Shown: positions 10,964 to 39,918 of the stretch, one piece after another | How the letters are laid out: each line of letters opens with the position of its first letter | Numbering within the stretch: position 1 is the stretch's first letter | Source of the DNA: Acidovorax facilis | GTDB taxonomy: Bacteria > Pseudomonadota > Gammaproteobacteria > Burkholderiales > Burkholderiaceae_C | Reading direction: 5' to 3' | Assembly (NCBI RefSeq): GCF_023913775.1 | Contig: NZ_JAMXAX010000008.1 | Span: forward strand, 1-64,000 | Length of the DNA: 64,000 nucleotides | Translations under genes and position numbers: made by a program | The notes under the pieces: generated by a model | What the model saw: the letters and a program-made list of their open reading frames with translations, nothing else | Told to the model about the DNA's origin: nothing | The model's database searches: none

Positions 10964-11443
10964 ATGACCCTGCCCCGCGTTTCCATCCAGACCGAGGACT
11001 TCGACCTGTCCACCGAAGTCGCTGCGCTGCGCCGCGAAAACAAAGGCATCGGCGCAGTGTGCAGCTTTGTGGGCACCGTGCGGGATCGCAACGAGGGCGA
11101 CCAGGTGTCGTCCATGGAGCTGGAGCACTACCCCGGCATGACCGAAAAATCCATCGAAGCCATGGTGGACGAGGCCTTTCGGCGCTTCGATATTTTTGGC
11201 GCCCGCGTGATCCACCGCGTGGGCCTGCTGCAGCCGCTCGACCAGATCGTGCTGGTGGTGGTGACCAGCGCCCACCGGGGCCAGAGTTTTCAGGCCTGCG
11301 AGTTCTTGATGGACTACCTCAAGACCCAGGCACCGTTCTGGAAGAAGGAAGAAACCGCCCAGGGCGCGCGCTGGGTGGATGCCCGCGTGTCTGACGACGC
11401 GGCGCTGGCGCGCTGGGGCATTGTGGCGAACAACGCCGCCTGA
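10964..11443 (+). CDS. moaE: Molybdopterin synthase catalytic subunit MoaE
   Basis: The 159-residue large subunit of molybdopterin synthase transfers two sulfurs from MoaD thiocarboxylate to precursor Z. The conserved core SFVGTVRDRNEGD and the catalytic region FLMDYLKTQAPFWKKE are present; Lys120 and Lys127 correspond to the active-site lysines of Escherichia coli MoaE. The ATG at 10964 gives the normal length; an earlier in-frame TTG would add 13 atypical residues. It is separated from moaD by 3.3 kb. Function is secure. Confidence 0.95.
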   Translation: MTLPRVSIQTEDFDLSTEVAALRRENKGIGAVCSFVGTVRDRNEGDQVSSMELEHYPGMTEKSIEAMVDEAFRRFDIFGARVIHRVGLLQPLDQIVLVVVTSAHRGQSFQACEFLMDYLKTQAPFWKKEETAQGARWVDARVSDDAALARWGIVANNAA

Positions 11444-11578: not shown

Positions 11579-14500
11579 ATGCAGTTTTCAGCACCACTGC
11601 GGCTCGTCGAGGCTTCGCGACGTTCGCTTTCCGCCTTCTTCTCCTGCCGCTGGGCCAGCCAGCGTGCCCTGGCATGGTGGCTGTTGGCGGGCGCTGTGCC
11701 GTGCGCTGCTTGGGCACAGACGGGAACCTGGCGCGAAGCTGCCAGTTTGTCGCTCCCCCTTTTGGAGCACGCAGTCGTCGCGCTGGACTATGGGCCGGTA
11801 CTGGTGACCGGTGGGAGCTCCGGCTCTGGAGCCGTAGCCACCGTGGATCGCTATCAACCCTATATGGACTACTGGTGGGGGACGCTGGGCGACATGCGGG
11901 AGCCCCGAAGGCTGCACACCGCCACCCAGTTGCCCTACGGCAACCGGGTGCTTCTGGCAGGTGGTTTCTCGGGTGCTGCGCTGGCATCTGCCGAGGTTTA
12001 CGACGCCGTCGCGGGAACGAGCGTGGCAGCACCGGCGATGAGTGTGCCCCGGGCGCGCCATACAGCCACCAGGCTGCTGTCCGGAGATGTGTTGATCGTG
12101 GGCGGCAACCAGCAGGTGGGCGAGAGCGAAGTTTTTGTCCAGGGTGGCGGCTCTTCTGGTCACTGGAGTCCGACGGGCCCCGTCCAGGTCCGCAGGGAGG
12201 ATCACACCGCCGTCCTGCTGCCCTCCGGCAAGGTGCTGGTGGCTGGCGGAAGGTCTTATCTGGATGGTGCGTTGACTTCGGTGGAGGTGTATGACCCCGC
12301 CACCAACAACTGGTCGCCTGCAGGCTCCATGGCAATAGCCCGCTCCGGGCACACCGCGACACTGCTGGCATCAGGACAGGTGCTGGTGGCGGGCGGGCGG
12401 GACATTGCAATGCTGCCCCTGAACTCTGCGGAGCTATACGACCCTGCCACCAACACCTGGGCCTCGGTGGGCCCCATGGCGTTTGCGCGCGAACGCCACA
12501 CGGCCAGCTTGCTGCCGTCGGGTGAGGTGCTGGTGGCCGGAGGCTATACGCCCAACGGCAGTCCGGTGGCAGACAGTGCAGAACGCTTCAATCCCCTCAC
12601 CAAGGTCTGGCAAACGGACGCTCCCCTTCCGGAAGCCCGAGCCAATCACACCGCCACATTGGTTCCCACGGGCGAGGTGCTGCTGTTGGGGGGCGAGGGG
12701 ACCACATCGGCGCTGGAAAGCGCCGTCCGTTACCGCTACCCGCAGGGGCTGTGGGCAGACGCACAGGATCAGGCTACCGCGCGGGGCTTTCAGAAAGTGG
12801 TGCTGCTTCCCTCTGGAAAAGTGCTGGCGGTCGGGGGCTTGGGTGCGGCGGGGGCCGTGGACACCGTCGAACTGTACGACCCTGCACTGAACGGCTGGGC
12901 CCCTGCTGCCGCTATGAGCGAGCGGCGCCATCGGCACACCGTGACGCTGCTGGCCTCGGGCAAGGTGCTGGTGGCAGGCGGGGTTTCCTCCAAGTCTGCC
13001 GAGGTGTATGACCCCGTCACTGACACCTGGGCACCCACCCCCGACATGACCGTCGTCCGCGAGCGGCACACCGCTACCCGCCTGGCTGATGGCCGTGTGC
13101 TGATGCTGGGTGGTGAAGGGGCTGCAGCAGGTTCCGCAGAGATCTACGACCCGGACCTCAACACCTGGAGTGCCGCTGCGGCGCCCGGGCGCCTTCGCTC
13201 TCAGCATTCTGCTGTGCTGCTGGGCACCGGCAAAGTGCTGGTGTTGGGCGGCGACTCGGGCAATGTTGCACTGGCTGCAGAGGTCTACGATCCTGCCACC
13301 AACAGCTGGAGCGAGCACGGCCTGCTCAGCATGCGACAGGCCACACTGACACGGATGCCCTCAGGCCGGGTGCTAGCGGTGGGCGGCTATCACGGCAACC
13401 AGGCCTTGAGCATTGCCTATGTCTACGACCCGCAGACAGGGTGGAGCTGGGCCGGCGAATTGCCTGGGCGGCGTGCGCGGCATGCCTCCGTGCTGCTGAG
13501 CAATGGCCGTGTGCTCATCACCGGCGGCGACGATTCAGCGCCCGACTCGCCCGTCTCCAGCCCCTACGAAAGCTCGCTGCTGTACGACGAATCCACCGGT
13601 ACCTGGACCGAAGTGGCGCGCCTGCGCACCGCGCGGGCGGACCTCGCGCTCACCTTGTTGCCCTCGGGCCGCGTGCTGGGTGTGGGGGGCACAGTGGGGG
13701 CCAACCAGTACACCGCAGAGGTGGATCAATACGTGCCGGAGTTCACTGTCACGCCGGTTTTGCGCACGGGGGGCTACTTCATGCCCGTGGCCCCGGTGCA
13801 GGCGCTGCTGGGCGACAGCGTATCGTTTGCGCTGCATACGACGCCGGGCTATAGGGTGACTGCAGCCCAAGGCTGTGGTGGTTCCCTGGTGGGCACGGTG
13901 TACACCACTGGACCGATCACCGCCAATTGCAATGTGAGCGCCACCTTTGCGGTGGAACGCACCGTCACCGCCGTGGCGGGGGCTGGGGGCAGCATCACCC
14001 CGAGTGGTGCGCAGGTGGTTCCTCAGGGCGGCAAAGCCAGTTTCACCGTCACCCCCCAGCCGGGGTACCAGATTGCCTCGGTGACGGGTTGTGGCGGCAC
14101 GCTGGTGCAAGGCAGCTACACCACAGCGCTGATCCTGCAGGACTGCACTGTCACTGCGTCTTTCACGGCCACCCAGCACGCCATCACTGCCGTGGCGGCT
14201 GCGGGCGGCAGTATCAATCCGGCTGGGGCCATCAACGTGGCCGAAGGCCAAACGGGCGCCTTCACCGTCACGCCCGCTGCGGGCTACCGCATTGCGGCCG
14301 TCACGGGCTGCGGCGGCACGCTGGCGGGCAGCACCTACACCACGGCAGCGGTGACGGCCGCTTGCACTGTGCAGGCGCGTTTTGAAACCCTACCTACACC
14401 CACGAACACCGGGTCGGGGCCGGTCAACGTGGGCGTGGTGGATGGCAGCGCGGGTTGCCAGCTGGACCTGGCGGGCACCGGCCCGGTGGCGGCACCGGCG

Positions 14501-14932
14501 CCGTACCCCGGCGCCACTTTGCCGCACGGGGCGTTCCGCCTGCGGCTCATCAACTGCCAGCCGGGTGAGACGGTGCGTGTGGCGGTGACCTTTCCAGACC
14601 TCACGGGCTTCACGGTGAAGAAGTACGGCCCCACACCCGACAGCCCCTTGTCCAGCCGCTACTACGACCCCGTGAACCTGCAGATCAGCGGCAATACCGT
14701 GACCTACGATGTGACGGACGGCGGCTGGGGCGACAACAGCTTTGGCGCGCAGGACGGCACCATCAACGACCCGGTAGTCCCCGTGCTGCTGGCGCCCAGC
14801 CCGGCGGCCATCCCCACCCTGTCGACCTGGGGCCTGGGTGGGCTGGCGGCACTGCTGGGGCTGCTGGTGTTGCGGGGCGGCCGACGCACGTCTGCGCGGT
14901 TTGTTGGAGCGGTGGCTCAAACAAGATTTTGA
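11579..14932 (+). CDS. Secreted kelch-repeat protein with IPTL-CTERM sorting signal
   Basis: This 1117-residue exported protein starts with a basic region and a hydrophobic signal ending AWA/QTG near residue 46. About fourteen kelch-type blades follow, each with a G-[KRE]-VLxxGG core (for example GKVLVAGG, GEVLLLGG, GRVLITGG) and YDPATNxW, to roughly residue 720. Three repeats with PGYxxxxxxGCGG (PGYRVTAAQGCGG, PGYQIASVTGCGG, AGYRIAAVTGCGG) follow. Next comes a choice-of-anchor U-like domain with VTYDVTDGGWGDNSFG. The C-terminus reads IPTLSTWGLGGLAALLGLLV from residue 1078, then an arginine-rich tail: the IPTL-CTERM signal thought to be handled by an exosortase-type enzyme. Kelch blades usually form ligand-binding propellers. 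Substrate and partners are unknown. Confidence 0.85.
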   Translation: MQFSAPLRLVEASRRSLSAFFSCRWASQRALAWWLLAGAVPCAAWAQTGTWREAASLSLPLLEHAVVALDYGPVLVTGGSSGSGAVATVDRYQPYMDYWWGTLGDMREPRRLHTATQLPYGNRVLLAGGFSGAALASAEVYDAVAGTSVAAPAMSVPRARHTATRLLSGDVLIVGGNQQVGESEVFVQGGGSSGHWSPTGPVQVRREDHTAVLLPSGKVLVAGGRSYLDGALTSVEVYDPATNNWSPAGSMAIARSGHTATLLASGQVLVAGGRDIAMLPLNSAELYDPATNTWASVGPMAFARERHTASLLPSGEVLVAGGYTPNGSPVADSAERFNPLTKVWQTDAPLPEARANHTATLVPTGEVLLLGGEGTTSALESAVRYRYPQGLWADAQDQATARGFQKVVLLPSGKVLAVGGLGAAGAVDTVELYDPALNGWAPAAAMSERRHRHTVTLLASGKVLVAGGVSSKSAEVYDPVTDTWAPTPDMTVVRERHTATRLADGRVLMLGGEGAAAGSAEIYDPDLNTWSAAAAPGRLRSQHSAVLLGTGKVLVLGGDSGNVALAAEVYDPATNSWSEHGLLSMRQATLTRMPSGRVLAVGGYHGNQALSIAYVYDPQTGWSWAGELPGRRARHASVLLSNGRVLITGGDDSAPDSPVSSPYESSLLYDESTGTWTEVARLRTARADLALTLLPSGRVLGVGGTVGANQYTAEVDQYVPEFTVTPVLRTGGYFMPVAPVQALLGDSVSFALHTTPGYRVTAAQGCGGSLVGTVYTTGPITANCNVSATFAVERTVTAVAGAGGSITPSGAQVVPQGGKASFTVTPQPGYQIASVTGCGGTLVQGSYTTALILQDCTVTASFTATQHAITAVAAAGGSINPAGAINVAEGQTGAFTVTPAAGYRIAAVTGCGGTLAGSTYTTAAVTAACTVQARFETLPTPTNTGSGPVNVGVVDGSAGCQLDLAGTGPVAAPAPYPGATLPHGAFRLRLINCQPGETVRVAVTFPDLTGFTVKKYGPTPDSPLSSRYYDPVNLQISGNTVTYDVTDGGWGDNSFGAQDGTINDPVVPVLLAPSPAAIPTLSTWGLGGLAALLGLLVLRGGRRTSARFVGAVAQTRF

Positions 14933-14987
14933 GCAAAATTGGCCGCTAGCGCTTATTGGTAAAGCGCTGGCAGCTATAAATTTTGTA
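14930..14987 (-). repeat. Short imperfect palindromic repeat, copy 3
   Basis: On the minus strand this reads ATAGCTGCCAGCGCTTTACC then AATAAGCGCTAGCGGCC, the same element as at 2683. It touches the end of the kelch gene and may act as a 3'-end hairpin. Confidence 0.8.
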
Positions 14988-15232
14988 GTGATTGTGAATG
15001 GGGCGGATGGAAGGTTTCGGCTGCACCAGGACTTCGTCGGCTCACTGGGTTGCGGTGAGGCATCGCCAGAAACCACAAGCAGTCGTCGGGCCGTCCTACA
15101 AGGCGGCAGGGGGGGCATCGATAAATTAGCGCTACCGCTGGCAGTGACTGTTGAACGCCACAGTAGCAGCCAGAAAGAAACTCTCCGCACAGTTTCATCA
15201 TCGCGTGCGCTTCATCTCCTACAAGGCTTCCC
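14988..15232. other. Intergenic region between kelch gene and lipoprotein
   Basis: Together with the repeat this makes a 300-base gap. It must contain the promoter and ribosome-binding site of the lipoprotein gene. I see no coding sequence and no strong promoter match. CTACCGCTGGCAGTGACTG and the A-rich AGAAAGAAACTC segment are unremarkable. Confidence 0.4.
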
Positions 15233-15565
15233 ATGAAAAAATCCCTGCTGCTCGCTGCACTTATCGTTACTTTTGGTCTTGCCGCTTGCGAGAAAACGGT
15301 TGTGACCCCTCCCGCTACTGCCCCCGTGGTCGTGGTCCCGGGCCCGGCAGGCCCTGCTGGCGCCACGGGCGCAACCGGCTCGACCGGTGCCACGGTGGCC
15401 GTTCCCGGCCCTGCGGGCGAAACGGGTGCCACTGGCGCCACCGGTTCCTCGGGTGCTCCCGGTTATGACGGTGCCAAGGGTTCCACCGGCGCTACCGGTG
15501 CCGCGGGCGATACGGGAGCCGATGGCAAAAAGGGCGATACCGTGATCGTCGTTCCGGCCAAGTAA
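15233..15565 (+). CDS. Collagen-like repeat lipoprotein
   Basis: The 110-residue protein begins with a lipoprotein signal, [19 protein letters not shown], with lipobox LAAC and Cys19 as the lipidated residue. After a short proline/valine linker it consists of Gly-X-Y triplets from about residue 37 to 103 ([18 protein letters not shown] type), rich in Ala-Thr rather than proline, interrupted near VAVPGP. It should be membrane-anchored and could trimerise like other bacterial collagen-like proteins. It follows the kelch surface protein, but a 300-base gap argues against one transcript. A strong terminator follows. Function unknown; adhesion or an envelope spacer role would be inference. Confidence 0.8.
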
Positions 15566-15758: not shown

Positions 15759-15787
15759 CTTGAAATTCCAGAAGATTTGCCCCAAGT
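15759..15787 (+). promoter_or_regulatory. Sigma-32 heat-shock promoter of clpB
   Basis: CTTGAAA (15759-15765), a 14-base spacer, then CCCCAAGT (15780-15787) match the heat-shock consensus CTTGAAA and CCCCATNT closely, with spacing in the accepted range. It lies 26 bases upstream of the clpB start. This predicts heat induction of clpB through RpoH. Confidence 0.85.
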
Positions 15788-15812: not shown

Positions 15813-18419
<2,607 letters not shown>

Positions 18420-32905: not shown

Positions 32906-35900
32906 TTATTGCAGCTGGCGCCAGCTGGGGCGTGCAGGTTGCTCAGGCATGCGTGCAAGCTTGTCGGGCTTGTTGTCTCCTCCAGAGAGCGTAATGGTTT
33001 TTTTGCCGGCTACATTGCTGACAGCTCCGGGTGGCAGTGTCATCCGTGACACGCCATCGTCTGTGGTGTTGTAGAAGCCATCGCCATTGCGGTCCATAAC
33101 TTGTACGCCTGGTTTCTTGCCATCCATGATATTGAGCAAGGTAAGGTAGGCTTTCTCTGGCGTGCCTGCCGGTTCACAGGTTTCGTCAGTGGAACCGTTG
33201 CCACCGTACGCGGGAGTAACTGAAAACACCATCAAATTGTTGCTTGCATCGAAGAAACTTATCGGACGCAGCACACGCTCGCTGGTTACTTGGAAATTGA
33301 AGTACCAGCCTTTCTTCACGGGGCCTTTGGTAGCATCGTAGTTGACATTATTCTGGGTCATTTGCCAGAAGCGCCGAGCAGAACTCACTCCTTGACCTGC
33401 AATACCTGTGGTATCCACCATGTCTTGCTTGACCAGATCGCTGGTTCCACTGACAGCAGTAGGAATCACACCATCGTCGGATATATCTGTATTGATGACA
33501 AGCTTGCCAGAATTGATTTTGTAGTGTGTGTTGTCAAGAATGGAATAGACAGACTGCACATCCGTACTGCTCCGATCATTGTCAGTGAGATTAGCTCCGG
33601 TACCAAAGGCCACCATCATGCCGCCCGCACCACGGTCATTCGCCTTGACGGTGGGAGGTGCAGTGATGGGCTGCCGCTTTCCAGAGTACTCTGCAGTAAA
33701 CAAAGGTTTACAAATAGAGGTTTTCCAGGCACAAGGTGTGGCATCGGTGCTTCCCCATGCTGCGACCGACCAGACGCTGGCATTGGGGCTGGTCAGGTCA
33801 AACTTCCAGAGATTGCCTTTCAGATCACCAGCGTAAACGATATCCACTTTACCATCGCTGTTGATATCCACTGGTTTGGGTGCCGAAAGGCCGTTGGCAA
33901 TGACATTGGTGTCGAGAGTAGCATTAATTGGGGAGCTGATTTTTTGGTTCCCTGTAGCAACAATTTTCACCAATTCTTTGAGGCCATCCAAATATTGAAT
34001 CAGTAGAACGGGCCGCTCATTTTTACTGTTATAACCATTGCCCATAATTACAGCCCACCGATTGTCGTTCATCATTGCGACTTGGCTGGCTTTGAATGGA
34101 TTGTTGTCATCCATGACGGGAGGATGGAAAATATGACCAATGTCCTCATCGTCGCTGCCTGCCGTCAATGGCGCGCTGGGGTGCAAGGTTTTGTCCATTA
34201 CAACCAAGTCTTTGGCATTGACAGTGGCGAAGGTCGTTGCGGGAGTACCTGACTTCCCACCAGGCTGGGTAACATCAAGCACGAAATACCCCTTGCCTCC
34301 TGCTCCCAAGGTGCCAACCAGAAGGGTTCGCCAATCTGGTGGCGATGCACTATCTGCCAGGTTTGCATCACCTGTGAACGGAGAGCCATCTACGTAGTAG
34401 CGATGAACGTAACCGGGTTCGCTTAACTTAGCGAGTTCAGGAACGACTGCTTTGGGAATGTATGCAATCTGCTCTTCCCCATCGACTCCAGAAAAACCGT
34501 GCAGCATGCCGTCATTGCCGCCTACATAGACCATCGGCAGTCGGTTTTTGTGCGTAGAAACGAAGGATTTATAACCTTTGAACGAGTAATTGCTAGCAGG
34601 CTTATCGACGTACCAGATACTGGAGTTTCCAATATCTCCCTGCCGTGAGTCGCGTACGCGAAATGGTTTACTGGCAGTACCTTCTTCATAGGTCCTTTCA
34701 CCCCTTATGAAATTGGTACGCTTTTCCCCAAGACTACCACCGTCAAGAAGTGTCTTCTGAGTTGCACTCAATTTTGTCGTCCCAGTTTCCCATTCAAAAG
34801 ATACGCCTTGGTTGGTATCGTCATTTGTGGTCAAAATCACCCGGGTTGAAATGTCCCGAAGATCCAGCTTGTTGGCGGTAGTTTTATGGGTGCTGCCGCT
34901 CACAACTCCCCATCCTGGATCAGGCGATGTATTGCCTGACGTGTCAATTTTATCGGCTCTTACATACCCTGACCACTTCTTTGGGTCATAGCCTGCAGTA
35001 AATCGCTGAAGATCAGTTCGGATGTTGGTGCTGGAACTACCTGCCATACTGGCTACATCGGCCGTATTTTCAAGATTAATATTTTCAAGAATCTTTTTGA
35101 ATGCTTCTTTTAAGTCATATTTACGGCCAGGGCCGGTAGGGTAGAATTTTCCGCGACTATTAATTGCAATATGCCAAAGTTCGGCAGGATTGTTGGAATT
35201 AAGATTTTGGAGTACTGTGGGTACCCAGGTCGTTGTGCCTGCGACGAGCTTTGAGTAATCTCCGCCCGCACCGTAGTTGTCATCATCTGCCATCGACCAT
35301 TTGGGTGCGCTTGGCCACGAATAAGCATCGGTGCCGTACCCTATGGTGTAGTTTACGAGGTGCTGCCATTTGGCTGGATTGTGCTTCGGATTCCAGTACC
35401 GTTGTAATGTGGTTGAACCAAAGGTTTCTGTAGAGGGAACTCCATCAGTTGTACTGGGCTTGATCAAGTCGTCAATGCCTGTCTGCAAATCTTCACGCCA
35501 CATTCTCATGGCCCAATCTGCTAATAAATTACCTTGCGCACCCCGATAGACGTTGGTTTGATCAGATGCTGTATCGTAAATTTGCCCGTCTGGGAGTGTG
35601 TAATTCACATTGTCTGCCTCTCCAGGCAGTTCGCTGGCGGCATAGCCGTTCCAGCCGCCATCGGTCATGAAAATGTGGTATGAGCGGCGGCAACCCAAGT
35701 AAGGTTCTTCCTTTGTCCCAGGTGTATAGGCCCAAGGACTATTCAAGCTCTTACCCACTTTCATATAGGTGTAGGCTTGTTTCATCATCCGGTGAGATGG
35801 TGTTCCGCTATTTGCTGAAAGGCTACCCGCGAAACTCAAAAAATTGGTCCGATGGGTGTCGTCAAGAACTTTCATGGAGTTGACAGCACCTGCAGTCAGA

Positions 35901-36232
35901 TTGCCTGCCCCAGTGGATCCACCATTGTTGTGCATCACCTGCCATGCCAAGCGAATCTTCCCATCGGGCAACAGCAGTTTGTCATTGAATACGACTGCGA
36001 GAGCCTCTTTCAAGCGGAACATCTTGGTCTTGGTATCCCCGCCTCCTACTTGTTCGCTCATACTCCCGGAATCATCTACAGACAGAATGACATTCGGTGT
36101 CGGGGGTATGGATACCAAACCCGGGGGAAGTGTTGAAAAATCCAGGGGGTCAGCTAGCGTTACTTGAGGGGTGCAGACTGCAGCAATCAGAGCGCCGATG
36201 GCCGTTTTTTTGAATAATGGCGATTTTTTCAT
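32906..36232 (-). CDS. pilY1: Type IV pilus tip adhesin/assembly factor PilY1
   Basis: This 1108-residue exported protein starts with a Sec signal ending near TLA/DPL at residue 27. A von Willebrand A-like segment carries the MIDAS pattern DDSGS at residues 53-57. The C-terminal part is a PilY1 beta-propeller: [17 protein letters not shown], and a calcium-binding loop [16 protein letters not shown] beginning at Asp789, as in the loop that controls pilus extension and retraction in Pseudomonas. A second EF-like loop, [13 protein letters not shown], lies near the C-terminus. It needs the upstream minor pilins for export to the pilus tip. GC is visibly lower than in flanking genes. Ligand specificity is unknown. 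Confidence 0.93.
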
Positions 36233-36244
36233 AAAATTCTCCTG

Positions 36245-37000
36245 TCAGTTTTTCATTTTCTGACGAACAAAAGTTGACTGCAGCACAACCTGCGTACTCG
36301 GTTTAAGCCCACGAGCTACGGCAGTGATGCGATATGCGACGCTTGGAAGGAGGTTTAGTGCAAGGCTGTTGGAGCCATTGGTGATAAGGCCTGTATTCCC
36401 TGCATTGTTATCGTAGGGAAGAATTTCAATCCAGTACCAGCCGCCTTTGGTGGCATCATCTCCTGGCTGATTTAATTTCAGGATTGGGTTGCTTTTGCTG
36501 CCTGCCTCGGCGCCAGTAAATTGGCCATAGCGCGCCCCAACACCATCCACCATTAGTGCAGTCAATGTGGTCTTGTCATTCCAGAAATCCTGATTGCCTG
36601 TACGTTTCAGGCATATTCCCTTGATGCATTTTGTAGTTGCACCATCCAGTTCGCTCAAAATGTTCCCAATTTCCTTGTCTTCAGTGGGTATCCATACTTT
36701 ATTTACTACCGCGTCAGGAACTCTGCATACCTCGGGTTTACCTGCGGCCGGGACGCAGGCGGTCCCATCTGGTCGCTCACCACGGATGTCGAATTCTGCA
36801 TCCTGGACGAGCGCTTGCGCTGCTTCAAAAGCTCTCTGGTAGTCGGCGTCGTTGCCAACAATCATTTCATTGAACAGAGAGGTTCTGGAACCCCACATTG
36901 CCAATAAAGCTGAGAGCATGACAATAACTATTACTACGAATAGAGAAATGCCACGTTGTAATTGAGGGGTTTTTTTTGACATGCTTTGCATGATGGTCAT
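36245..37000 (-). CDS. pilX: Type IV pilus minor pilin PilX
   Basis: The 251-residue protein has a class III leader, RGISLFVVIVIVMLSALLAM, with cleavage predicted after the glycine. The usual Glu5 is absent in this helix, as in many PilX proteins. The body contains SLFNEMIVGNDADYQRAFEA and AQALVQDAEFDIRG, typical of the PilX/PilX_N family. It is 12 bases upstream of pilY1 and 9 bases downstream of pilW in the same operon. Minor pilins of this type prime pilus assembly at the membrane. Confidence 0.86.
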   Translation of the reverse strand: MTIMQSMSKKTPQLQRGISLFVVIVIVMLSALLAMWGSRTSLFNEMIVGNDADYQRAFEAAQALVQDAEFDIRGERPDGTACVPAAGKPEVCRVPDAVVNKVWIPTEDKEIGNILSELDGATTKCIKGICLKRTGNQDFWNDKTTLTALMVDGVGARYGQFTGAEAGSKSNPILKLNQPGDDATKGGWYWIEILPYDNNAGNTGLITNGSNSLALNLLPSVAYRITAVARGLKPSTQVVLQSTFVRQKMKN

Positions 37001-37009
37001 TGTCCGTAA

Positions 37010-37900
37010 TCAGCCCGTCAGCCCTTGGCTTCGCAACTGGTATGTGGTGCGAAAGGTAATGTGAAGGCGATTTTTTCGATTGGCCGGAAGTGTGCCGGTA
37101 CTGCTCATATTGACGGCAGTGCCATCACAGCCAGTGTAGGAGCTGCCGGCGGGCATATCGATGGGTTCATCGCCATAAAGTACGATGCATACATCTGCTC
37201 CATAAACAGTATTCCAGGCAGTTCCAATCGTGGTTGCATTGACAGTTTGAATTTTCGGAGCGCCTGTAGTGCTATCCGTTTGCCGAAGGTAGTTGACTTG
37301 GAAGTCTGCGATATTGCGGGCCAGCGCTTGTGATCCAATGCCTGTTCCGGCACAGCGAAATTCCTCACCTTGTAGAATGAACTGGCTCTGGAGGATGTTC
37401 TGTTCAAGAGGGGCTACCGGCAAATTCGGTGCGTTGGAGAGGCAGTCGCGGAAAAAAGAAACGTTGGATGCGGAGGTGAAGCTCGGTTCGGCATAATTCT
37501 GATATGCGACAGAGAGTTTGTATTCAGACGCTGTTGGTGAGTCTTTTCCAGAGATTGGCGGTGTAGATGCTGTCAGCGAGTGAAGTGATATATCTGGAGT
37601 GAAAGCAACAACATCTGCAGGGTCAATGGGATCGGTAGGTCCCTTATTGGCAGCCAGATCCAGGCGCATCGAACCTGCTTGCCGCAGTTGCTGTCCAATA
37701 ATGCGAAAGATATAAGAGGCTTGTTGTTGAATTTGGCTGGCATCACTCACAGTGCCAGATACCCCGCGCGAAATCATCAGTGCACTGGCAGCAACGGCAA
37801 TCGTCATAAGGCCAATGGTAATTCCAACCAATAACTCCACCAGTGTGGCGCCATGTTGAGTGGATAGATTTTCAGATCTTGGGAGATAGTTTTTTTTCAT
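37010..37900 (-). CDS. pilW: Type IV pilus minor pilin PilW
   Basis: The 296-residue prepilin has the cleavage region QHGATLVELLVGITIGLM (Gly17/Ala18, Glu22 being the mature fifth residue). IFRIIGQQLRQAGSMRLDL is a PilW signature, and the long globular domain has four cysteines in its second half. It sits between pilV and pilX with gaps of 3 and 9 bases, so translation is probably coupled. Function is in the tip-initiation complex with PilV, PilX and PilY1. Confidence 0.88.
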   Translation of the reverse strand: MKKNYLPRSENLSTQHGATLVELLVGITIGLMTIAVAASALMISRGVSGTVSDASQIQQQASYIFRIIGQQLRQAGSMRLDLAANKGPTDPIDPADVVAFTPDISLHSLTASTPPISGKDSPTASEYKLSVAYQNYAEPSFTSASNVSFFRDCLSNAPNLPVAPLEQNILQSQFILQGEEFRCAGTGIGSQALARNIADFQVNYLRQTDSTTGAPKIQTVNATTIGTAWNTVYGADVCIVLYGDEPIDMPAGSSYTGCDGTAVNMSSTGTLPANRKNRLHITFRTTYQLRSQGLTG

Positions 37901-37903
37901 TGT

Positions 37904-38512
37904 TCAGACTCCAGGGCAAAAAGTCTGCGGCAAGGTCGGGCCTCCCATTGTGTAGGGCGCGCAACGGGCTGTCAGTTGAATGTACTGAAGATGGCAGATG
38001 CTGTTTGCGGGGCAGGAAACACTGCCTGTTTCTGTGTTTGTAATTTTGAAAACAGCGCCTGTTCCCGTATCTTTCTCATTTTCTCGCCAGCTAACCATAA
38101 CCCCCAATTGTCGATTGTTGTTTGCGACGGTCTCATCTGGAACAATAAAGACATTGACGTCCGAATTGGGAAGTGCGTTGGTAACGGCCTGACGCCAGCG
38201 TGAGACGTCATAGAGGGCCAGCTGTTGAGAGTTGCAGGGTGTAGTTTTGCAATCAACAGGTGCTGTAGGTGTTGCGCCCCAGTTCATTAAATAGCTGTTG
38301 ATATTTCCTGGGGCATTGGGGTTCACCTTGGTGTGCTCGCTCAGGTCTTCAATCAGTCGAATGGCTTGCGCACGCCGTACCCCTGTCTGTGTGTCCGCGA
38401 GTGTGCGAAGTTGTACCCCCAAAATTCCCAAAATGCCTAGCGCTGTAACGACAATAGCAACAAGCGATTCAATCAGGCTAACACCGCGTTGTCGATTATT
38501 TTTCACGGACAT
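37904..38512 (-). CDS. pilV: Type IV pilus minor pilin PilV
   Basis: The 202-residue prepilin has RQRGVSLIESLVAIVVTALG (cleavage after Gly10, Glu15). The conserved GVQLRTLADTQTGVRRAQAI region and paired cysteines (DCKTTPCNS; SCPANSICHLQ) follow. It overlaps the upstream FimU-like gene by 10 bases and precedes pilW by 3 bases. It is part of the minor-pilin priming complex. Confidence 0.88.
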   Translation of the reverse strand: MSVKNNRQRGVSLIESLVAIVVTALGILGILGVQLRTLADTQTGVRRAQAIRLIEDLSEHTKVNPNAPGNINSYLMNWGATPTAPVDCKTTPCNSQQLALYDVSRWRQAVTNALPNSDVNVFIVPDETVANNNRQLGVMVSWRENEKDTGTGAVFKITNTETGSVSCPANSICHLQYIQLTARCAPYTMGGPTLPQTFCPGV

Positions 38513-39066
38513 GTGGTTGCTCCTTTCGTTGCTTTAATGCGGCCACCTGAAGAAATGCACAGAGCTGTTGCATGCCTCGACGCTACGCCCAGCGGCTGGG
38601 GTGTGACGCTGAAACTGGCAGCCCCAAGTCCGTTGATCTGTCCCCAGCGATCCACTTTGTAAAATGCACCATTGAAAAGGTGGTTAACGTTGACATTGGG
38701 CAAGTTTGGAAACGTCTGCAGGACTGCATCTGTTCCGTTCAGAATCCCATCATTATTTGCATCCGTAAAAACAATCCATCCACATTCCCATTGTTGGACG
38801 GTCCCGGTGGCGCAATTCTTTCTCACGGAGACAAGTCCTCCCCGCTTGATTGCTTCTGAGCGGGCTAAATAAATACTGTTTGTTATCTCCTCGGTCGCAG
38901 CCCTGACCCTGAAGCCGTCCATCAAGTCTCTAAAGCTTGGTCCAGCCAAAGCTGCCAGCACGGCCACAATGGCTACAACAATCATCAACTCGATCACGGT
39001 GAATCCACGACTTGGCCGAGAGCGTGTCTGCATTTGCGGTGGAAGAGAGGGGGGCAGTACTTGCAT
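38503..39066 (-). CDS. GspH/FimT-family pseudopilin, FimU-like
   Basis: This 187-residue (or 176, from the ATG at 39033) prepilin has SRGFTVIELMIVVAIVAVLA with cleavage after the glycine. The GspH/FimT domain includes IYLARSEAIKRGG and WECGWIVFTDANNDGILNG. It is the first gene of the minor-pilin operon, as fimU is in Pseudomonas. The leader before the cleavage site is long if the first ATG is used, which favours 39033. A promoter for the operon should lie in 39067-39154, but I see no convincing -35/-10 pair. Confidence 0.85.
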   Translation of the reverse strand: MQVLPPSLPPQMQTRSRPSRGFTVIELMIVVAIVAVLAALAGPSFRDLMDGFRVRAATEEITNSIYLARSEAIKRGGLVSVRKNCATGTVQQWECGWIVFTDANNDGILNGTDAVLQTFPNLPNVNVNHLFNGAFYKVDRWGQINGLGAASFSVTPQPLGVASRHATALCISSGGRIKATKGATTCP

Positions 39067-39154
39067 ATCGTCATCCTACGAAGATAAGGTGCGTGGTAGT
39101 CAGGTTAGGTGACGGGTGGCACCTACACGCCGACGAGAGGTTGGCTTCAGCCTG

Positions 39155-39460
39155 TCACTTGCGTGTGTATCCCCTGCAGGCCCCGGCGTTGTGCAGGCCT
39201 CGGCACTCCCGGAACATACGACGGTCGCGTTCGGCCGCTGTCTCTTCAGAGGTGCTGCGTTGGTAGGTGACCTTGCTCACGCTTTTTTTCCCGGGAGAGG
39301 TTTTGGCTACATGGGTTTTATCGTCTGTGGAGCCTTTGGCCTGCGCGACGCCGACGCCTGTGAGTAGTGTTAGCGCGATACCTGCAGCCAGCAAGGCAAG
39401 CAGGCTCTGATGCAGGGTGTGAGGAGTGGTGTGGTGGGGAGTGCGCTGAGATTGCATCAT
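39155..39460 (-). CDS. Small secreted hypothetical protein
   Basis: The 101-residue protein has a clear signal peptide (LLALLAAGIALTLLTGVGVAQA) and a mature part of about 60 residues, basic and polar, ending RRMFRECRGLHNAGACRGYTRK without other motifs; two cysteines could pair. An ATG-ATG at 39458-39460 starts it; a longer reading would run into rpsO. It lies between the pilin cluster and the divergent rpsO. Function unknown. Confidence 0.6.
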   Translation of the reverse strand: MMQSQRTPHHTTPHTLHQSLLALLAAGIALTLLTGVGVAQAKGSTDDKTHVAKTSPGKKSVSKVTYQRSTSEETAAERDRRMFRECRGLHNAGACRGYTRK

Positions 39461-39512
39461 GCGGTTTTCGGTCGAAAATGAATGTGTGTAGTGTTTCCGG
39501 ATCGGGTTGTGC

Positions 39513-39544
39513 TTGGCAAGGTGAAAATGCGGCTGGGTTATACT
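39513..39544 (+). promoter_or_regulatory. Candidate promoter of rpsO
   Basis: TTGGCA (39513) and TATACT (39539-39544) look like -35 and -10 boxes, but the 20-base spacer is too long; GGCAAG two bases later would give 18. The -10 box is convincing, the -35 less so. It lies about 110 bases before the rpsO start. Confidence 0.35.
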
Positions 39545-39651
39545 CAGCTGGTTTTGCATGGTGCAAGACGCACGCCTGCAGCCGTTCCAGCCGCTGGCGC
39601 AAGTAAAAACCACGGCCCAGCTTCCTTTGCGGGCCTTATCAAGGAAAAATA

Positions 39652-39918
39652 ATGATCGCATCCTCCATCAAGGCCGAAGTCGTCAAGGCGAACGCCCGTG
39701 CTGCCAATGACACTGGTAGCCCAGAAGTGCAGGTGGCCCTGCTGACCGCCCGCATCAACGAACTGACCCCTCACTTCAAGACGCATGCCAAGGACCACCA
39801 TGGTCGCCGTGGCCTGCTGCGCATGGTGAGCCGTCGTCGCAAGCTGCTGGACTACCTGAAGGCCAAGGACGCTGACCGTTACACCGCGCTGATCGCCAAG
39901 CTGGGTCTGCGCAAGTAA
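39652..39918 (+). CDS. rpsO: 30S ribosomal protein S15
   Basis: The 88-residue primary 16S rRNA-binding protein is recognised from [40 protein letters not shown] and [11 protein letters not shown]. Length and sequence are standard. AAGGAAAAATA precedes the ATG. A terminator follows at 39936, and pnp begins 207 bases after the stop, the same order as in Escherichia coli. Confidence 0.98.

Follow-up and report, generated by a model that had tools for sequence, protein, structure and literature searches.

The question raised by this locus is how a large kelch-repeat protein ending in a sorting tail may reach its place in the cell envelope, and why the head carried by that tail differs between related genomes. 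The gene occupies 11579..14932 on the plus strand of the window, a 64,000-nucleotide stretch of Acidovorax facilis DNA corresponding to G000:C404:1-64000 in a 6.42-Mb draft genome of 415 contigs, where G000 designates the window's own genome, the other G-numbers the genomes and the L-numbers the loci compared here. It is an open reading frame (ORF) of 1117 amino acids (aa) with an ATG start, described from family matches and a structural model as a kelch / B-repeat / choice-of-anchor U / IPTL-CTERM gene, and its product belongs to the already known IPTL-CTERM / XrtH kind of substrates. We consider it fairly probable that the kelch protein is a binding protein which exosortase H (XrtH) sorts for display at the cell surface, and in which a constant anchor carries an exchangeable head.

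According to the proposed scheme, the protein would be exported by Sec, retained by a stop-transfer at its IPTL-CTERM helix, cleaved, at the IPTL motif or close to it, by the single XrtH of the genome, with Cys73, Arg114 and His133, which we take to be the active site, and handed over to an envelope acceptor. Two kelch propellers, borne on a disulfide-braced stalk of B-repeats, would then face outward and bind a glycan or a protein, perhaps belonging to the cell's own matrix. Anchor and head would evolve as separate modules, the tail being kept between moaE and clpB and the head being replaced by recombination, with kelch repeats in G000 and G035 and FG-GAP repeats in G001 and G068.

Domains and predicted fold of the kelch protein

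The polypeptide begins with a signal-peptide-like start (residues 1-47, 11579..11719), recognized by eye from the translation and ending in AWAQ. The kelch repeats are matched by two Pfam families, Kelch_4 over ten stretches (E=3.3e-66, 219.5 bits for a cut-off of 21.6) and Kelch_1 (E=1.7e-60, 200.5 bits for a cut-off of 20.1). Fourteen kelch GG strands were counted, at residues 78, 128, 175, 223, 272, 321, 371, 419, 467, 511, 557, 602, 649 and 703, all chosen by eye from the output of a script splitting the protein at GG, from which two GG pairs (ends at 189 and 731) were excluded. An earlier sequence-only reading of this DNA had proposed about fourteen blades, possibly forming two seven-bladed propellers, and both the count and the fold agree with the present analysis. 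In the AlphaFold2 model, built on a 12-sequence alignment with a mean predicted local distance difference test (pLDDT) of 69.7 and a predicted template modelling score (pTM) of 0.42, the relative placing of the domains is unreliable, and most ten-residue blocks between residues 61 and 700 average a pLDDT above 70. Propeller A (residues 49-391, 11723..12751, GG strands 78-371) matches galactose oxidase with a Z of 35.7 over 324 aligned residues at 2.5 Å, and propeller B (residues 395-745, 12761..13813, GG strands 419-703) matches GlxA with a Z of 34.1-34.3 over 322 aligned residues at 2.4 Å. These values come from the VIA-align rows, the top rows of Foldseek itself mixing both propellers with a high root-mean-square deviation. 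Since the propellers of galactose oxidase and GlxA are seven-bladed, the fourteen blades fit two such propellers, and the kelch protein is predicted to hold two seven-bladed domains of the galactose oxidase type.

Resemblance to these enzymes leads to another possible reading, that the propellers constitute a displayed enzyme, either a copper radical oxidase or a relative of the sialic-acid mutarotases, to which the matches of the kelch protein with the family models of GlxA (93.4 bits) and N-acetylneuraminate epimerase (39.7 bits) also lend some credit. Both scores are, however, far short of the respective cut-offs of 800 and 416, and a second mutarotase-family model (N-acetylneuraminate epimerase / YjhT) reaches 32.6 bits for a cut-off of 256.35. 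In addition, galactose oxidase carries a Tyr-Cys cofactor, whereas cysteine is absent between residues 42 and 766 of the kelch protein, leaving no propeller residue as the partner of the tyrosine. The oxidase assignment was rejected on the missing cysteine and the GlxA score, the epimerase / YjhT assignment on the family scores, and a displayed enzyme appears very improbable. Because the cysteine is lacking and the oxidase and mutarotase models remain so far below their cut-offs, the propeller head more likely binds than catalyses; in comparison with galactose oxidase and GlxA, the seven-bladed fold is predicted to be shared (Z 34-36).

The propellers are followed by a stalk of three B-repeats (residues 750-940, 13826..14398), recognized by Flg_new_2 (InlB B-repeat) at E=3.7e-12 with two stretches over the threshold. 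Three GCGG motifs occur in this stalk, each with a second cysteine located 18 residues further (766/784, 838/856 and 911/929), and these pairs may form disulfides; two further cysteines, Cys 960 and Cys 993, flank the beginning of the anchor domain. The choice-of-anchor U domain (residues 977-1069, 14507..14785) is matched by NF041766 with 54.6 bits for a cut-off of 32. The IPTL-CTERM tail (residues 1076-1103, 14804..14887), made of the IPTL motif, a helix and a basic end, exceeds the cut-offs of both PF18203 (21.5 bits versus 20.8) and TIGR04174 (25.3 bits versus 20.5), and the model places a helix at residues 1083-1099 of the tail with low confidence. The GCGG repeats, the anchor-type domain and the sorting tail announced by the sequence-only reading are thus all recovered, but its description of the architecture as uncommon is too strong inside the genus: a second kelch-IPTL protein exists in G000 (L089) and another in G035 (L101), and several IPTL loci of G001 also match the kelch head. 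The ratio of nonsynonymous to synonymous divergence (dN/dS) is 0.18-0.35 along the protein with respect to G035 and G025 and, judged from this ratio, the gene is under purifying constraint. A promoter scan found no sigma-70-like site near the gene, and no Rfam match was found near it.

XrtH, its clades and its putative substrates

The single XrtH of the genome is encoded at G000:C380:21944-22411 and identified by TIGR04177 (211.2 bits, E=2.9e-62, cut-off 86); TIGR04178 matches this same gene and no other in G000. The general, EpsH-type exosortase model PF09721 gives no match in G000 at E <= 0.01 and, used alone, would wrongly seem to refute the presence of an exosortase, because TIGR04177 and TIGR04178 do find XrtH. 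The existence of the enzyme had been predicted from a single window, together with that of other IPTL-CTERM proteins, and both expectations are borne out by the rest of the genome, where PF18203 recognizes 17 IPTL-CTERM proteins over its cut-off, the kelch protein included. Two proteins of the 'midcut-by-XrtH' type, L094 (G000:C373) and L097 (G000:C23), carry the IPTL motif mid-protein and score 129.8 and 176.3 bits for a cut-off of 45. Roughly 11.5 kb beyond the end of the window, at G000:C404:75477-75554, the same contig has a further IPTL-CTERM gene, L085 (234 aa).

XrtH and IPTL-CTERM proteins occur together in the genus, where 28 of the 47 genomes possess both and 18 neither, none possesses IPTL proteins alone, and one (G007) possesses XrtH alone. 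Among 200 genomes of the order, a set containing the window's own genome, XrtH over the cut-off and IPTL proteins are both found in 11 and both missing in 188; XrtH over the cut-off is never found without IPTL proteins, and a single genome, G183, shows IPTL without XrtH over the cut-off, with one weak IPTL match (E=5.3e-4). Eleven further genomes of the order, among them G183, match the XrtH model under its cut-off. This co-occurrence agrees with the pairing implied by the NCBIfam names. The largest sets of IPTL-CTERM proteins are encountered in G068 (47 matches) and G001 (35 matches), the other 26 IPTL-bearing genomes of the genus having 1-25.

The C-terminal helix might also serve as a membrane anchor only, the protein then remaining in the inner membrane, oriented towards the periplasm, with no processing by XrtH. 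Points for this view, which equally weigh against sorting by XrtH, are that the IPTL tail of the kelch protein is the second weakest among the 17 PF18203 matches of the genome, that the motif drifts at the slot to IPTLSAGG in G001 and IPTLSAWS in G035, and that the literature found, most subscription papers being outside the search, holds no test of XrtH nor any data on its processing. Sorting by XrtH is further weakened by the low confidence of the anchor part of the kelch model, by the occurrence of XrtH without any IPTL match in G007, and by the fact that the Fisher P values for the co-occurrence, 4e-12 in the genus and 3e-17 in the order, ignore the relatedness of the genomes. Within the same reach of the literature, nothing was found linking an exosortase to kelch proteins or to modular exchange; what came up on exosortases and Acidovorax was off topic, and what came up on domain shuffling in PEP-CTERM proteins concerns ice-binding proteins. 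Against the anchor-only view, however, the tail of the kelch protein is over both curated cut-offs, that of its G001 counterpart is over the cut-off too (21.2 versus 20.5), and such tails co-occur with XrtH; we accordingly rate the anchor-only view as unlikely and retain sorting by XrtH as the preferred reading.

The 30 XrtH proteins from 29 genomes of the genus fall into two clades with a support of 1.00 and 51-56% identity across them; C73, R114 and H133 do not vary among the 30. The second clade is represented in 9 of the 29 XrtH-bearing genomes, including G000 (L098). A strict IPTL motif occurs within the short XrtH locus (about 1.5 kb on each side) for 12 of the 21 first-clade enzymes and for none of the 9 second-clade enzymes. 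A DUF11-type IPTL gene is still present in each of the four second-clade genomes examined, G000, G001, G023 and G034. Only in G023 (L146, L147) does it lie beside a first-clade XrtH, which is split over three reading frames, an intact second-clade XrtH being located on another contig. From this comparison, covering four of the nine second-clade genomes, it looks like the sorting enzyme has been replaced while its substrates stayed.

A shared tail under different heads between moaE and clpB

The kelch gene is bordered on the left by a gene that is presumably moaE (10964..11443, plus strand) and on the right by one that we take to be clpB (15813..18419, plus strand). The blastn match between G000 and G001 runs through moaE to 11437 at 88.6% and stops, resumes at 14173-14988 at 86.6%, ends at a collagen gene and resumes again at 15779 at 89.3%. 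Within the gap there is an extra match of 166 bp, which pairs one B-repeat with another and, on the G001 side, overlaps the resumed match. The stretch 14173..14988 (plus strand), common to G000, G001 and G068 under a differing head (86.6% and 86.4%), comprises the last part of the third B-repeat, the anchor domain, the IPTL tail and the start of the 3' flank. Since the synonymous divergence (dS) between G000 and G001 is 0.295 for the tail, compared to 0.38 for moaE and 0.32 for clpB, the tail is, on these estimates, about as diverged as its surroundings, and the head is not shared. The G001 protein (L032) consists, according to Pfam, of FG-GAP repeats and a cadherin-like domain ahead of a choice_anch_U domain (56.9) and the IPTL_CTERM tail that is barely over its cut-off. 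The propeller nature of its head is deduced only from the FG-GAP repeats, the single-sequence model, with a mean pLDDT of 37.7, being unusable.

moaE was found in 46 of the 47 genomes of the genus, and the slot was scored in the 38 genomes possessing moaE and, downstream of it, clpB on one piece, 8 others having no clpB in the piece and 1 no moaE. The gap is empty (116-255 bp) in 29 genomes and filled in 9. Depending on the genome, the slot contains the kelch-IPTL gene (G000, G035), an FG-GAP protein on the shared tail (G001, G068; the assignment of G068 follows from a matching tail and gap length, the FG-GAP head itself being read in G001), a kinase-like ORF recognized by eye together with a 196-aa IPTL protein and a collagen gene (G034), a collagen gene (G025, G026), a decayed tail (G009, by eye) or an ORF on the opposite strand (G017, by eye). 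A frame-broken tail adjoins clpB in G003, outside the 38 scored genomes, and a kelch-IPTL homologue of 65% identity is located elsewhere than in the slot in G025. The filled slots are scattered over the branches of the clpB tree, a single-gene, midpoint-rooted tree used for scatter only.

The kelch head is found in G025 and G035 with 65-67% identity over nearly its full length. Identity between G000 and G035 increases along the protein, from 56% in propeller A and 67.5% in propeller B to 72% in the stalk and 83% in the tail, with a dS of about 1.0 for the propellers, 0.61 for the tail and 0.34-0.44 for the flanks. Because the divergence of both propellers and tail exceeds what the flanks predict, the history that separates G000 from G035 is, by these comparisons, not one of simple descent either. 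A kelch head moved elsewhere in G001 was considered and rejected, the best head match listed there having 49% identity across residues 204-577 and the short stretches not exceeding 57%.

Differing heads could also result from ordinary fusion or deletion of neighbouring IPTL genes, or from one old insertion followed by losses, without recurrent exchange. Tandem IPTL genes do exist (L083 in G000, L169 and L173 in G001), a homologous ORF is kept in 10 of the 12 syntenic pairs compared, and losses can equally explain the scatter of the filled slots. On the other hand, three kinds of IPTL gene occupy the moaE-clpB slot in five genomes, a simple pattern search for FG-GAP heads recognized none among the 16 other IPTL proteins of G000, and a second slot, described below, has ORFs sharing only the IPTL tail. 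We give fusion and loss not quite an even chance, and continue to favour replacement of the head by recombination over a kept tail.

The small collagen-like gene (15233..15565, plus strand; 110 aa, PF01391 E=1.5e-9), whose product begins with a lipobox-like segment (LAAC, recognized by eye), is a separate occupant of the moaE-clpB gap, and its presence does not depend on that of the kelch gene: it occurs without the latter in G034, G025 and G026 and is missing in G035, G001 and G068. Another component of the gap is a repeated element, TAAAGCGC..GTAGCTAT-like, at 14960-14977, also encountered at 2684, 26629, 38454 and 42416, giving 5 matches in the window with up to 3 mismatches for 0.24 expected. 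The copy at 14960 begins 28 bases past the stop codon of the kelch gene; counterparts of its surroundings (14926-14994) exist between moaE and clpB in many genomes devoid of that gene.

Extent of the apparent exchange and relation to known systems

The IPTL loci of G000 were compared with those of G001, G028, G034 and G035, an ORF being obtained for 53 of the 62 loci; L094, L097, L170, L174, L176, L190, L191, L199 and L200 gave no IPTL ORF by pattern and were left out. Twelve pairs show blastn matches in both 3-kb flanks of the G000 gene, those involving L085 (three pairs) being weaker owing to repetitive downstream matches. The homologous ORF, where kept, extends over most of the shorter protein, and one of the twelve pairs is the head swap between moaE and clpB. 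In the pair formed by L084 (G000:C366) and L189 (G034:C11), the flanks match at 91% and 95% and the relationship between the two ORFs is confined to an IPTL tail of 35 aa with 71% identity, one ORF appearing leucine-rich-repeat-like by eye. Since tail identity there is below flank level, a whole-gene exchange would fit better than a head swap. Exchange is thus apparent at two slots and, among the loci compared, is not the rule. As a tentative and rather doubtful generalization, Acidovorax might keep chromosomal 'display slots' for XrtH-tailed genes whose heads are replaced as cassettes, the heads in view being, at moaE-clpB, kelch, FG-GAP or a small domain and, at L084/L189, two unrelated ORFs, and the sorting enzyme being exchangeable too.

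With the IPTL-CTERM / XrtH kind (TIGR04174 / PF18203 with TIGR04177), the kelch protein shares a tripartite C-terminal tail over the cut-off, an XrtH in the genome and many substrates for one enzyme; it differs by its twin kelch head and low-scoring tail, and the XrtH of G000 differs by belonging to the second clade, with no IPTL gene beside it in the stretches read. The PEP-CTERM / EpsH system (PMC3237569) has in common a signal peptide, a tripartite C-terminal tail, an exosortase-family enzyme and a many-to-one relationship, whereas in the kelch protein IPTL replaces the PEP motif, and the missing PF09721 match separates G000 from the EpsH type. An IPTL-CTERM protein of Methylomirabilis lanthanidiphila, mela_00855, is an S-layer protein that immunogold labelling located at the cell surface (PMC8671808, the only paper found in which IPTL-CTERM is named); it resembles the kelch protein in having a signal peptide and an IPTL-CTERM tail but differs by its 316 aa and its assembly into an S-layer, the available part of that paper making no mention of kelch repeats. 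In Aquincola, flocculation is reported to involve a PEP-CTERM protein (PMC9850573), so that a matrix role for the kelch protein would be plausible by analogy.

Besides the exosortase predicted from the window, added interest comes from the slot with its kept tail and changing head and from the apparently replaced enzyme, both deduced from sequence comparison only. The papers found contain little bench work on this sorting system, and the genus provides natural experiments on it: a single locus presents the tail with two different heads, and one set of substrates is paired with two enzyme clades. With these it could be examined which portion of an IPTL protein is read by XrtH, and whether the XrtH clades interchange.

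Elsewhere in the window, a type IV pilus minor-pilin cluster extends over 32906-39661 on the minus strand and comprises a PilY1 propeller domain, PilX, a Tt1218-like pilin and a GspH-like protein, together with two ORFs having no Pfam match.

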